Part shown: piece after piece, positions 1,377 through 17,918 of the stretch
How the letters are laid out: every line of letters begins with the position of its first letter
Numbering within the stretch: position 1 is the first letter of the stretch
Source: Prochlorococcus sp. AG-347-L17
GTDB lineage: Bacteria > Cyanobacteriota > Cyanobacteriia > PCC-6307 > Cyanobiaceae
Assembly (NCBI GenBank): GCA_003278925.1
Contig: QCCN01000005.1
Coordinates: forward strand, 1 to 64,000
Direction of reading: 5' to 3'
DNA length: 64,000 bases
Translations under genes and position numbers: made by a program
Notes under the pieces: generated by a model
What the model saw: the letters and a program-made list of their open reading frames with translations, nothing else
Databases searched by the model: none
What the model was told of the DNA's origin: nothing

Positions 1377-2591
1377 TCATATCAAGAATTTAAAATACTT
1401 TTTATAACTTGTAATTAACATACTAATTATCACAAACAAATAAAAAGTAATCGCTATTTTTAAATTTGAAATGAAAATTAGTACGACTAAAGAGCAAATC
1501 AAAGATGGCATGAAAAAAAGCAATTTTTTATTTAATCCAAAGTTCCAATAAATCATGTCAACAGGTACTAAAAGTAATATTCCAGCAATAGATTGAATTA
1601 AAGCAAGTGATATTAAATAAAAATCAAAGCCGAATGCTATCAAAGAAACAGCTATAGAAAAAACTATGCCAATTAATAATAAATCATGGAATAAAATATT
1701 AAACTTTTTTTTACTTTTAGATCCTACATTGATTATTTCCCATCTATTGGCGCTAAAAAATATAATGCTATAAGCAATAATTGGCATTGAAAACAATCTT
1801 TGAAATAATGAAAAATTAGCCATTTCATTTAAATTTTCAACATTATTTGAAACCACTAGAAAAGGAAGAACTCCAAAACTGGTTAATGAGAAAGATAGAA
1901 TAATTTGCTTTAAAGGAATTCCTTTCAAATAAAAATTTCTTATAAAAGAAATATCTAAATCAAAAATAGATTTTAATCCTATTAATTCTCTAAAAGCAAT
2001 ATATTTTCCCTTAATTATCAACCATGCAAGTAAATTTGAAAATAAAGAAAAAAACATAATAAGAATCAAAAATTTGTTGGAACTTATTAAATTTATAAAT
2101 AAATAAGGGGAAAGCATAATTATTCTTCTTGAAAAAAGGAACATTGTATAGGCAGGAATATCTACTTCACCGATTTGAAGAAACCTTTGTAATTCATCAA
2201 ATATTTTCTCTCCTAAAACAAAAAAGAATAAAAGAAAGGACAAAATTAAACTATTCGGTCTTAATAAAATAAAAATCAAAGGTAAAGCAATACTAATATG
2301 TAGAAAGATTTTTTTTATATAAATTGACCAAAATTTATTTAACTTATCTTGATTAGCAGGATTAAAATCATCTTTTTTAGCAAGCTTGCTATGCTCAAGC
2401 ATAAATTTTGTATGATATTCGGTTGATATTAGATTGGATAATAAAACGCCCATGCCAACAAGCTGAGTTAAGAAAAAATAATTACTATCATTTTTTGATT
2501 TAAGAAATGTAAGTATTAAAATTGGAATAAATAGTGATATGCCTCTTATTGCCGTATTAATGATTTTATTTTTAATTATCAAATCGAACAA
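1377..2591 (-). CDS. Polysaccharide flippase-like (Wzx/MATE-like) membrane protein
   Basis: 404 aa, many hydrophobic helices; glycan-gene context. Confidence 0.55.
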   Translation of the reverse strand: MFDLIIKNKIINTAIRGISLFIPILILTFLKSKNDSNYFFLTQLVGMGVLLSNLISTEYHTKFMLEHSKLAKKDDFNPANQDKLNKFWSIYIKKIFLHISIALPLIFILLRPNSLILSFLLFFFVLGEKIFDELQRFLQIGEVDIPAYTMFLFSRRIIMLSPYLFINLISSNKFLILIMFFSLFSNLLAWLIIKGKYIAFRELIGLKSIFDLDISFIRNFYLKGIPLKQIILSFSLTSFGVLPFLVVSNNVENLNEMANFSLFQRLFSMPIIAYSIIFFSANRWEIINVGSKSKKKFNILFHDLLLIGIVFSIAVSLIAFGFDFYLISLALIQSIAGILLLVPVDMIYWNFGLNKKLLFFMPSLICSLVVLIFISNLKIAITFYLFVIISMLITSYKKYFKFLI

Positions 2592-2692
2592 ATTTATTTA
2601 GCATTATTTTAAAGGTTGATAATTAAATATATTGATAATTTAAAAATATGAAAAGATTATTTTTTTTCAAAAACACTATTTAATTAGTGAAA

Positions 2693-3988
2693 TTAATAAA
2701 CAATTTTATTGATTTTCTCTAAAAGCAAATCTGATACATCTCTTGGTATTTTTTTTACTTTTTTTTGAAAAGCAATTGCATCATTATACAATTCCGAAAA
2801 AGAATTATAATTTTCTCTTTTAAAAACATATCCATCTAAATCATTAAAAGAAGACTTTAGACATCTTTTTGAAGCAGGACAAAGAAATAAAGTAACTTTA
2901 TTTGCATAATATGCATCTATAGTGCAAGAACTACTTAAAGTTATATGTACATCAGACCAATTTAAATCATCCGATAAAGAATTATTTTTACTTAAATTAA
3001 AAATCGATTGATTATTTACTTTTGAGAGGTAACTAATACCTTTGATCTGCTTAAAACAATCTTTATTATTATAAGCAATGGGATGTAATCTAAATCTAAT
3101 AACATAATCTTTAATTTTAAGCATCCAATTAAATAATTCTATTGTATTTAGGAGATAAGGATCAATTTTTTTGAACTCATTGTTTGTATAAAATCCCTTA
3201 TGTCCATAAGAGCAGGTAATTAGGATATTATTCAAGAATTTTTTATTTTTTTTTCGATTAATTTTATTTGTTTTAATATTTGGTCCAATAATAATTAATT
3301 CTGATTTTTCATTCTGATTTTCAGAGGAGGTGATCATTTCTTTGATAATATTAATTTCCCTTTTACTCCAAAGTAGTAAATGAGTAGGTTTAAATTTATA
3401 GAAAAAAGAGTCTTTATAATGAAATCTATCCATATACCATTCTTGATCCGAAGTTAAGAGACCATGCTGAATATCTGCGATCTTTATATTATTTTCTCTA
3501 GCTACTTCTACTAAAATGGGATTAGGCATTAACCCAATTATTAGATCAGGATTATATTCTATAAGAATTTCTCTCCAGAAATTCTTAAAACTTACTATTA
3601 AAGAACCTGATCTAAGAAGTTTGAAAAATAATAGTATTGAATGGGAATAAATTTTTCTAGTTATATTTTTAGAAATTTGTGAAAGTGGATCATTTATATA
3701 ATAAAAGTTTATTTCTGGCGTATCTTGCAAATTCAAGAGTCTTTCTGTAGTGGGACAAATAGTCTTGCCAACTATTCGATTACCATCAATAATAATTAAA
3801 ATATTTTTTTTATTATTTTCTTTTACAGATTTTTTATTTTTAAATTTAATAAGATAAACTTCCTGAATTATATTCAATGTAAAATTTACTATTTGAAAAA
3901 ATCTTTTTTTTATCCTTGTAAGCAATGAAATTGATTTTCTATCAGGAAATATTATCTTAAAAAAATTATTGGAATTATATTTTTGCAT
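2693..3988 (-). CDS. Surface polysaccharide biosynthesis protein, glycosyl/glycerophosphotransferase-like
   Basis: 431 aa; IADIQHGLLTSDQEWY resembles the QHG motif of capsule/CDP-glycerol transferase-like proteins; context. Confidence 0.45.
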   Translation of the reverse strand: MQKYNSNNFFKIIFPDRKSISLLTRIKKRFFQIVNFTLNIIQEVYLIKFKNKKSVKENNKKNILIIIDGNRIVGKTICPTTERLLNLQDTPEINFYYINDPLSQISKNITRKIYSHSILLFFKLLRSGSLIVSFKNFWREILIEYNPDLIIGLMPNPILVEVARENNIKIADIQHGLLTSDQEWYMDRFHYKDSFFYKFKPTHLLLWSKREINIIKEMITSSENQNEKSELIIIGPNIKTNKINRKKNKKFLNNILITCSYGHKGFYTNNEFKKIDPYLLNTIELFNWMLKIKDYVIRFRLHPIAYNNKDCFKQIKGISYLSKVNNQSIFNLSKNNSLSDDLNWSDVHITLSSSCTIDAYYANKVTLFLCPASKRCLKSSFNDLDGYVFKRENYNSFSELYNDAIAFQKKVKKIPRDVSDLLLEKINKIVY

Positions 3989-4095
3989 TACAAAAAGGTT
4001 ATTTTTTTTTTAATAAATTTATAATAGAATAATAAAGTAAGTTAATTTTTTAACAACTTATTGATAATATTCTACTAGATATATTCAAAATTATT

Positions 4096-4662
4096 TTGAT
4101 TAGTTACTTGGGGAAAAGATTCATAGATATTATTTTTTCTTTATTAGCTATTGTTTTTCTTTCTCCCCTTTTCGTTTTAATTTCCTTAAGTATTTTTATA
4201 TTTGATAAGGGTCCAATATTCTTTACACAAAAAAGAATTGGTAGAAGAAATAAAATTTTTAAAATTATTAAATTTAGGAGCTTACCAGTTGGCACAAAAA
4301 ATATCTCCTCGGACAAATTACCAGAAATAAAAACAACTAAAGTTGGCAAAATCATTAGAAGGACTAATGTGGATGAATTACCACAACTCTTTAATATATT
4401 AAAGGGAGAAATGAGTATAGTTGGTCCAAGACCTCCTTTATCATCTCAGAAAGAGCTTATAAATTTAAGAAATAAAAATAAATCTATTAATTGCCGGCCA
4501 GGATTAACTGGCTTAGCCCAAATCAATGGATTTGATAATATGCCGGTTCAAATTAAAGCTTCTTATGACTATGAATATTCCACAAAAATGTCTTTTTTAT
4601 TAGATATTTGCATTATTTTAAAAACATTTATTTATCTTCTTTCTCCGCCACCAAAGTATTAA
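4096..4662 (+). CDS. Initiating sugar transferase (bacterial sugar transferase / WcaJ-PglC-like), TTG start
   Basis: GKRFIDIIFS, GPIFFTQKRIGRRNKIFKIIKFRS, VDELPQLFNILKGEMSIVGPRPP motifs. Confidence 0.9.
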   Translation: MISYLGKRFIDIIFSLLAIVFLSPLFVLISLSIFIFDKGPIFFTQKRIGRRNKIFKIIKFRSLPVGTKNISSDKLPEIKTTKVGKIIRRTNVDELPQLFNILKGEMSIVGPRPPLSSQKELINLRNKNKSINCRPGLTGLAQINGFDNMPVQIKASYDYEYSTKMSFLLDICIILKTFIYLLSPPPKY

Positions 4663-15424: not shown

Positions 15425-15556
15425 CTACGATATCAACCCAGCATTTATATCAGGGTCTAACAAGTCATCTGAAAGATTACAATTTAAGTCTTTTAAAAGT
15501 TTTGAGAATAGATAAGCTCTGTTACTTCCCATTACTCCAATTAATATTTTTACCAA
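15425..15556 (-). pseudogene. 5' fragment of a second copy of the sulfotransferase-like gene at 15926-16870
   Basis: Translates as (M)VKILIGVMGSNRAYLFSKLLKDLNCNLSDDLLDPDINAGLIS*, clearly homologous to MVKILIGGMGRSGTSLFSKLFQDLNCNLSDDLIDPEINAGIEI, ending at an in-frame stop. Confidence 0.8.
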
Positions 15557-15760
15557 AATGATTTATTAAATTTTTTTAATGATACAACAGTTCATTTTTA
15601 TATCAATTTTAAAATTATTAGTGCTATATACCTTTTTACCTATTTGCAAGACTTACAGGTCGCAGAGGGGTACATTTTGCCATATTTTGACTTATCAAAA
15701 CCTATCTTTTTATTATGATAAATTGGTCAAATAATTTGGCATAACAAGCTTAAATCCAAA

Positions 15761-15829
15761 TGGTGCCAAGCGGACTCGAACCGCTGACCCCCTGCATGCC
15801 ATGCAAATAACCAACGTAGCTATAACTAG
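15761..15829 (-). pseudogene. tRNA-Ala(TGC) pseudogene/remnant
   Basis: Revcomp ...TTGCATGGCATGCAGGGGGTCAGCGGTTCGAGTCCGCTTGGCACCA matches the 3' half of the intact tRNA-Ala at 17162-17234 with one mismatch near the acceptor end; 5' half is degenerate. Confidence 0.85.
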
Positions 15830-15887
15830 CTTTTAGAGGTGTTTCTGATAATTTGCGCGCAGGCCTGCTCTCACAGATAACAATACC

Positions 15888-15913
15888 TGAAAGATAAAAA
15901 ATTTTATCTTTCA
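15888..15913. terminator. Hairpin downstream of the sulfotransferase-like gene, possible terminator
   Basis: TGAAAGATAAAA..TTTTATCTTTCA inverted repeat just past the stop codon; no long U-tract. Confidence 0.4.
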
Positions 15914-15925
15914 ATAAATTCGTTC

Positions 15926-16870
15926 TTAATTTTTTGAATTCCGTAATTTATCTATTACCTTCCTAAATTTATAGGAATATTTCCAAATTCTCGATTTTTG
16001 AATTGAAAATAAAATCTTTTGAAGTTCAAGAGTGCTTTTGTTTAATTCCTCATTTTTAATTTTTAGTTCCTCATTTTTAATTTTTAGTTCCTCAATTTTA
16101 ATTTTCAATTCCTCATTAGCAGATCTAAACTTTTTTTTAAAACGCAAATGCGCGTGTAAAAAAGCAGCACTATTTATAGATGATGCTTTTTTTTTAATTT
16201 CATAATCAGTAAAAATCTCAGCAAAATTTTTATTTTCTAAATCAGACTGAGAAATTGAAACTTTTTCTTTTTTAAAATTTTTAGTCATCCATTTAACGAT
16301 ATCCTCTTTGGAGATGTTTAACTTCAATGTAATATCCTCTATAGAAGCAGCCCAAGTTTCACATATTTCTTTAACTCCAATCGAAGGAAAAGGAACTAAA
16401 GAAAATCTTATTCCTTTGATTAAACACTGATTGATAAGTGATAATGTTCCGCTACTAAGAAAATCAGTTTGATAAGAGGAATCTAAGGTGTAATGTAATC
16501 CTGCATTAACTTTACTAAAAGACATTGTTAGATCCTGCTTATCTTCAGAGTTATAAAAACTAGTATATATTTCATTAGTAAGACGACTAAAGGTGGCCAA
16601 ATAGGGGTCTCTTACTGGAATAATTAATAGTGAAATATTATTTTTATTAAACTCATTAGAATGAGCAATTTCATAAATGAAAGGGCTTTTAGCAACTCCT
16701 GAATCTTGAGAAAGTAAAAAATTGCATATTTGATCAACTTGAATCTCAATACCAGCATTAATTTCGGGGTCTATAAGGTCATCTGAGAGATTACAATTTA
16801 AGTCTTGAAAAAGTTTGGAGAATAGAGAAGTGCCACTTCTTCCCATCCCTCCAATTAATATTTTTACCAA
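15926..16870 (-). CDS. Sulfotransferase-like P-loop protein with C-terminal coiled coil (TTG start)
   Basis: VKILIGGMGRSGTSLFSKLF matches the phosphosulfate-binding loop pattern; (KIKNEEL) heptad repeats near the C-terminus. Confidence 0.65.
   Translation of the reverse strand: MVKILIGGMGRSGTSLFSKLFQDLNCNLSDDLIDPEINAGIEIQVDQICNFLLSQDSGVAKSPFIYEIAHSNEFNKNNISLLIIPVRDPYLATFSRLTNEIYTSFYNSEDKQDLTMSFSKVNAGLHYTLDSSYQTDFLSSGTLSLINQCLIKGIRFSLVPFPSIGVKEICETWAASIEDITLKLNISKEDIVKWMTKNFKKEKVSISQSDLENKNFAEIFTDYEIKKKASSINSAAFLHAHLRFKKKFRSANEELKIKIEELKIKNEELKIKNEELNKSTLELQKILFSIQKSRIWKYSYKFRKVIDKLRNSKN
16046..16116 (-). repeat. About 21-nt in-frame tandem repeat encoding LKIKNEE heptads
   Basis: ttcctcatttttaatttttag-type unit repeated about 3 times with minor variation. 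Confidence 0.85.
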
Positions 16871-17161
16871 AATAATTCTTTAATTTTTTTACCAATATAG
16901 CAGTTCATTTTTATTTCGATTTTAAACATTATTCGCATTTAATATATCAAAATTCAAAAGAATCTAGATTCACCATACCTAGCTGAGCTTTGGCATAGCC
17001 TGTTAGAATAAAAAATAATATATCCCCTTTTACCTATTTGCAAGGGTACTTGTTACATCTTGCAGAGAGTCCATATTAATACATATTTAGACAATAAAAT
17101 TCATCTTGTATTCCTGTGTATTTTCGTTCAAACTAATTAGTATTACTACCGAAAATCCTGA

Positions 17162-17234
17162 TGGAGCCAAGCGGACTCGAACCGCTGACCCCCTGCATGC
17201 CATGCAGGTGCTCTACCAGCTGAGCTATGGCCCC
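17162..17234 (-). tRNA. tRNA-Ala(TGC)
   Basis: GGGGCCATAGCTCAGCTGGTAGAGCACCTGCATGGCATGCAGGGGGTCAGCGGTTCGAGTCCGCTTGGCTCCA: complete cloverleaf, anticodon TGC. Confidence 0.97.
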
Positions 17235-17300
17235 ACTATCTACAAATATATCAATTGAAACCTTGATATTTGTATTTTCAAAATATGAATTTATCTAAAA

Positions 17301-17918
17301 TTAAACTTTTCGCCAAACAGCTAATAATTTTCCTTGAAAAACGACTTCATCTTGATTTAACTCAATCGGTTCATAAGCCGGATTGGCTGCTTCAAGATAT
17401 ATTTTTCCTCCTTTCTTAACAAAATACTTTAAGGTAGTTCCTAAACCGGGAACCATTGCACTAACAATTGTTCCATTTCTAAGAGAGTATGAATCTGTTA
17501 TTGGCTCCATCAAAACCATATCTCCATCTGCAATACATGCGTTTATCATAGAATCTCCATTAACTGTAAGAGCGAAAACATTTTTCTTTTTTAAAACATC
17601 AGAAATATCTAAATTATCTTGAACATCAGAATAAGTTTCAATTAAACCCCCAGCTGCGACTGAACCCATAATTGGTACTCCTTCAATAATTTCTTCAACT
17701 ATTTGCATTGTTCTTGCTTTACCTTCTTGCCATGAGATGTAGCCCTTTTCTTGCAAATGTTTTAAACGACTTTGAATTGGAGCAGGAGATTTTAATCCCA
17801 TAGCTTGCATCATTTGCCGGATGGATGGACTATGTTGGAAGTCTTTCATATATTCCTTTATCCATCCATATAGCTCATTCTGAGCTTGAGTAAGATCATC
17901 CCCTGAAGAAGTTTCCAT
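17301..17918 (-). CDS. lexA: LexA repressor
   Basis: Winged-helix N-terminus; AAGG cleavage region, NGDSM Ser and TTLKYF Lys of the S24 domain. Confidence 0.95.
   Translation of the reverse strand: METSSGDDLTQAQNELYGWIKEYMKDFQHSPSIRQMMQAMGLKSPAPIQSRLKHLQEKGYISWQEGKARTMQIVEEIIEGVPIMGSVAAGGLIETYSDVQDNLDISDVLKKKNVFALTVNGDSMINACIADGDMVLMEPITDSYSLRNGTIVSAMVPGLGTTLKYFVKKGGKIYLEAANPAYEPIELNQDEVVFQGKLLAVWRKV

Follow-up and report, generated by a model that had tools for sequence, protein, structure and literature searches.

The most abundant photosynthetic cell has a hypervariable surface island, and by what route single genes enter it is an open question that bears on phage resistance. The locus described here poses this question at the edge of such an island, in the 64-kb stretch of Prochlorococcus DNA that we analysed as a whole and call the window (contig C5 of a 1.52 Mb assembly, 94.6% complete). 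A sequence-only reading had noticed a block comprising a tRNA-Ala, a spacer and the 5' end of a gene that occurs twice in the same orientation, and had proposed that this was the scar left when one attachment site received insertions repeatedly, each pushing older cargo inward. The comparison with relatives bears out that proposal, but changes the identity of several of its parts.

The outer tRNA-Ala(GGC) is intact, as that reading had it, and lies on the minus strand at 17160-17235 (ARAGORN, Rfam), flanked 5' by lexA and 3' by an island of surface-polysaccharide-type genes. It is the putative insertion target (attB), and its present 3' half would come from the youngest element. The apparently younger, outer unit spans 1.4 kb (15806-17205) and holds one gene. 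Its parts, all on the minus strand, are a right, P'-like arm directly 3' of the tRNA end (17041-17161), a vestige of an integrase start (16986-17002), a cargo gene encoding 314 aa with a sulfotransferase-like P-loop (15926-16870) and a left end, or P-like arm, that includes degenerate arm repeats (15806-15887). Next comes a second tRNA-Ala 3' half at 15760-15805(-), running from tRNA position 29/30 to the end and 98% identical over 46 nt (E 2e-16), which would be the attachment core of the junction. What remains of the inner, apparently older unit is also on the minus strand: a right arm at 15645-15757, with one intact arm repeat CTCTGCGACC at 15658-15666, and at 15425-15556 a dead 5' fragment of 43 codons from a related gene, the remains of its cargo. 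The far end and left arm of this unit have been lost.

The repeat itself is real: in addition to the tRNA half, the spacer and gene 5' end recur at 15438-15576 and 16752-16890 with 83% identity over 139 nt (E 9e-47). It consists of two blocks rather than one, however, the tRNA half with its arm and the gene 5' end, and the two arms are of different subtypes. Translation agrees that the inner gene piece encodes 43 aa and a stop, with the P-loop GGMGRSGTS altered to GVMGSNRAY, and adds a frameshift before the similarity stops. The name sulfotransferase holds for the N-terminal P-loop motif, the one feature on which it is based, but no Pfam or NCBIfam family fits the 314-aa protein. Its structure model was uninformative (pLDDT 45), and no relative was found in viral contigs, genome contigs or the other genomes of a 266-genome sample of the genus.

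The inner tRNA had been described as decayed, with a nearly perfect 3' half and a scrambled 5' half. The first half of this description stands. The second does not, as the copy is an exact tRNA-Ala 3' half from the anticodon stem onwards, fused to a conserved element end that is present in relatives; the supposed 5' half is this end, which happens to resemble the 5' half of a tRNA. A caution follows for other islands, where copies labelled as decayed tRNAs can be attachment junctions.

We surveyed about 100 tRNA-Ala loci in the genus. Many carry one to three extra 3' halves, each beginning at tRNA position 29-32 and oriented like the tRNA; these lie on its 3' side, at distances of 0.17 to 5 kb or more. 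Every remnant on a contig with an intact tRNA has this one orientation and this start (about 29-32). A conserved sequence precedes the displaced halves, for example ...CTGTGCGAGCAGCCCTGCGAGCAAAATGCCGAAAACACCTGCAAAACCTAGTTATAGCTTAGTTGGTGATC|TGCATGGCATGCAGG, and was matched at E < 1e-7 in 26 of 266 Prochlorococcus genomes. The left end in the window is 84% identical over 96 nt to that of genome G182 (E 1.8e-24). A profile built from 95 nt of the relatives' ends, excluding both the window and the tRNA part, found a single place in the 64-kb window, 15887-15807 (E 4.7e-17; next match E 0.36).

The right arms are as distinct. The usual right arm combines a palindrome (AAAACGATACGTTTT) with direct repeats CTCTGCGACCA. 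With the window left out of its construction, a profile of this arm matched 15757-15645 (E 4.9e-23) and 17161-17041 (E 6.7e-17), while no other match scored below E 2.9, so the similarity of the spacers is far above the AT-rich background that might have explained it. Repeats of the type CTGCGA(G/C)CA occur on both arms around the tRNA 3' half. The arm dyad TGCGASCWNNNYTGCGASC occurs 28 times in the 266 genomes; in 27 cases a tRNA-Ala 3' half is adjacent, and the dyad is found on both sides of units, while the reversed pattern used as a control did not occur at all. As relatives have arm-type repeats on both sides of the core, the arm-core-arm layout is that of a lambda-like attP, although in the window the arm repeats are degenerate. 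Full-length ends were found in Prochlorococcus and in none of 58 other genera of the family, and the named loci that match the element arm exactly come from Prochlorococcus single cells or MAGs. Viral contigs were scanned for the palindrome, the left end and both arms, with no relevant result: the eight matches to the arm pattern were in contigs of 48-66% GC without a tRNA. A search of a phage collection returned tRNA matches only.

Complete units, measured from tRNA to end or from end to end, have a median length of 1354 bp (n=32). Most are 0.7-2.6 kb long and hold a single gene but no recombinase. Of the 31 units scored, 20 have exactly one ORF of 80 aa or more, and an integrase was absent from 31 of 32 units, the sole exception being locus L160 in genome G124. 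The orientation of the genes within units is mixed. The cargo of the relatives' units is mainly surface-decoration enzymes, including FkbM and other methyltransferases, AT3/SGNH acyltransferases, sulfotransferases, arylsulfotransferases, MBOAT and GDSL proteins, GDP-mannose-dehydratase-like proteins, GT10, PhyH, formyltransferases and O-antigen-ligase-like proteins. Turnover of cell-surface genes is probably what the units are for.

A recombinase family accompanies the target. Five loci (L052, L066, L070, L111 and L160) encode a divergent tyrosine recombinase, 429-439 aa long, directly 5' of tRNA-Ala and transcribed away from it. It falls under the Pfam cut-off but matches the phrog_1 integrases (E 4e-20) and also phrog_216, and it keeps the invariant residues R254, R366-H367, R372, H392 and Y401. 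Searching genus-wide gave matches in 114 of 254 genomes. The 11 best all adjoin tRNA-Ala, on its 5' or 3' side, and start about 130-150 nt away; the next groups adjoin tRNA-Gly(GCC) and tRNA-Thr(GGT). A candidate autonomous element is present in genome G017: its integrase begins 140 nt from the 3' end of the tRNA, and 6.8 kb further on there is a displaced half. At G106:C25:9393-12274 the tRNA-Ala lies between two intact recombinases of this family, one on each side. The window genome's assembly (G000) has no member of the family.

With a probability that we put at about 85%, the window feature records two or more site-specific insertions that followed one another at tRNA-Ala(GGC). The remnants share one orientation and a breakpoint in the anticodon stem, conserved element ends lie on both sides, and an integrase family is dedicated to tRNA-Ala. 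In relatives there are one to three remnants per locus, at variable distance from the tRNA and with different cargo in between, and the arrangement seen in the window is not common to them. The inner arm is nearest to those of L034 and L038 (86% over 100 nt) and the outer arm to that of L145 (91% over 102 nt), followed by L163 and L160, but the two are only 66% identical to each other. As both match other genomes better than each other, they point to serial insertion. The T-stem alleles of the intact and displaced tRNA-Ala halves often differ in relatives, as would be expected if each newcomer supplies its own tRNA half.

Each unit would bring its own lambda-like attP, in which a tRNA 3' half is the core between two repeat-bearing arms. 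Crossover in the anticodon stem-loop would be the work of a tyrosine recombinase, probably of the family found beside tRNA-Ala, and the arms would presumably bind this enzyme. The newcomer would restore the tRNA with its own 3' half, pushing the old half and the older unit inward. In the window, the younger 1.4-kb unit (15806-17205) would descend from an integrase-bearing element, and the older unit would since have been truncated.

The vestige in the outer unit bears on that descent. The sequence CAGGCTATGCCAAAGCT at 17002-16986 (ATG CCA AAG CTC AGC TAG) is identical at 17 of 17 nt to the integrase-start region of L160 and is in the same place in L160 and L163, 232 nt from the tRNA against 239 nt in L160. 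The L160 fragment at this position is recognised as an integrase N-terminus (E 4.5e-9). The identity and the near-equal distance make it most likely that the outer unit is an integrase-deleted derivative of an integrase-bearing element.

Whether units move after losing the integrase is the point on which the strongest alternative turns. Each unit may have arrived as a full integrase-bearing, tycheposon-like element and then lost its integrase and most of its cargo where it stood, the small units being immobile relics. The vestige in the window fits this, as do about 18 decayed integrase fragments found beside tRNA-Ala in other genomes by comparing coordinates. So does a unit with one intact and one broken integrase, L160 at 1762-4237, in which a sulfotransferase-like gene accompanies the integrase fragment and the intact copy, and which looks like a composite of two elements. 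Many of the small units seen would also result if integrases were lost once inserted and nothing moved in trans. However, the best-preserved ends (G182, G020, G156 and G016) belong to units in which one gene is packed between the arms with no integrase remnant, which favours movement after integrase loss. We regard decay in place as a serious possibility, though less likely than not, and lean slightly towards integrase-less units having been moved in trans. The best reading is that integrase-deleted mini-elements stack at tRNA-Ala and supply the cell-surface island gene by gene.

We first favoured another enzyme for that role, a core tyrosine recombinase of 392 aa, as it is the assembly's only PF00589 match, and dropped it for the divergent family beside tRNA-Ala. 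Its gene (L161, G000:C3, 9286-10464) lies between hemH and cobO, with no tRNA nearby, and is conserved across the family of genera, in 190 of 201 genomes. That it acts in trans on the units is highly improbable, as it is found in 55 of 59 sampled genera while the element ends were found in one only, and as a dedicated tRNA-Ala recombinase family exists.

Least probable of all is a plain tandem duplication, in which tRNA-Ala, spacer and gene 5' end were copied without any mobile element and the inner copy then decayed: it would account for the 83% identity of the gene 5' ends and for a gene unique to the window genome, but it would make the arms each other's closest relatives, which they are not, relatives carry the same junction with unrelated cargo, the inner copy has the tRNA 3' half only, and the foreign left end before it (15806-15887), known from other genomes, already refutes duplication as the sole cause. 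Serial insertion nonetheless needs one addition. The outer and inner units have in common the 5' end of one rare gene, and as this gene is in no other of the 266 genomes, independent acquisition does not simply explain the sharing. Recombination between the outer and inner units is the simplest addition and must have played a part.

Other tRNA loci show related arrangements. The 3' half of a tRNA-Pro(TGG) in the window genome recurs behind that tRNA as at least six direct repeats (L200, G000:C15:1-18000), each 46 nt from position 29 and mostly 1.3-4.4 kb apart, so that a second tRNA appears to show stacking of this kind. At L102, L224 and L200, tRNA 5' halves (positions 1-34 to 1-43) are duplicated near intact tRNA-Ala or tRNA-Pro genes, which suggests that the 5' side of a tRNA can receive elements too. 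The position of lexA also varies (window 17160-17918; L068, L091, L101 and L112). It adjoins the tRNA in the window and in seven relatives; several other relatives have it in the opposite orientation and beyond the tRNA-Ala island, at its far end, as if the tRNA and island had been inverted together.

With the insertion point, both element ends, the growth direction and a matching recombinase family named, gain gene by gene becomes trackable in single-cell genomes and testable in vitro.

Repeated partial tRNA 3' ends have been seen in Prochlorococcus islands before. Work by Coleman in 2006 reportedly described tRNA-Pro repeats in MED4. An island of MIT9313 has pseudo-tRNA-Met copies (PMC2784084). 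Those islands involve other tRNAs, and the accessible parts of the accounts do not define element ends. The picocyanobacterial integrases are also divergent tyrosine integrases grouped by neighbouring tRNA, but those described in PMC10187409 sit upstream of tRNA-Phe or tRNA-Cys, while the family found here goes with tRNA-Ala, tRNA-Gly and tRNA-Thr.

Additive flexible genomic islands are assembled from cassettes at tRNA genes. The reports on Ca. Actinomarinales fGI1 (PMC7771536), Alteromonas fGI1 (PMC4119200) and Ca. Methylopumilus fGI-2 (PMC10872708) describe a tRNA as repeated target, partial tRNA direct repeats at cassette ends and small variable cassettes, in Actinomarinales likewise in a cell-envelope island. 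The tRNA target, the partial direct repeats and cassettes that vary between strains (PMC7771536, PMC4119200) are all found here. In the available sections of those reports the tRNA repeats appear without conserved arms on either side of the core, whereas arms, repeats and recombinase family are defined here.

Tycheposons share with the units their host, tRNA targets, a tyrosine recombinase and genomic-island cargo, and as in tycheposons insertion is at a tRNA whose 3' part is repeated at the far end. The parts of PMC10872708 and PMC10187409 that treat them describe elements that carry a tyrosine recombinase and measure 4-200 kb. The units here mostly measure 0.7-2.6 kb and have a single gene; the outer unit is 1.4 kb and the median 1.35 kb (n=32) against 4-200 kb (PMC10872708), and the recombinase is absent from 31 of 32, reduced in the window to the 17-nt vestige. 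The tRNA-Ala family may nevertheless be a tycheposon recombinase. The tRNA-targeted cassettes and tycheposons are thus known kinds, and what appears new is the defined arm-core-arm structure and a single-gene, integrase-less form dedicated to tRNA-Ala, although tycheposons were compared through citing papers and Hackl et al. 2023 may cover part of this.

Integron cassettes and CALINs (PMC11389934) offer a functional likeness: there too, single-gene units lacking an integrase accumulate at one site, plausibly through the action in trans of an integrase encoded elsewhere. The details differ: judged by sequence rather than folding, the junctions here are tRNA 3' halves with lambda-like arm repeats instead of attC hairpins, gene orientation is mixed, and the recombinase belongs to another integrase family, with matches to phrog_1 and phrog_216. 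It is a tentative suggestion, but the tRNA gene may play the part of attI in an integron-like system, in which integrase-less, single-gene arm-core-arm units are moved in trans by a tRNA-dedicated recombinase and the surface genes of Prochlorococcus are swapped singly.
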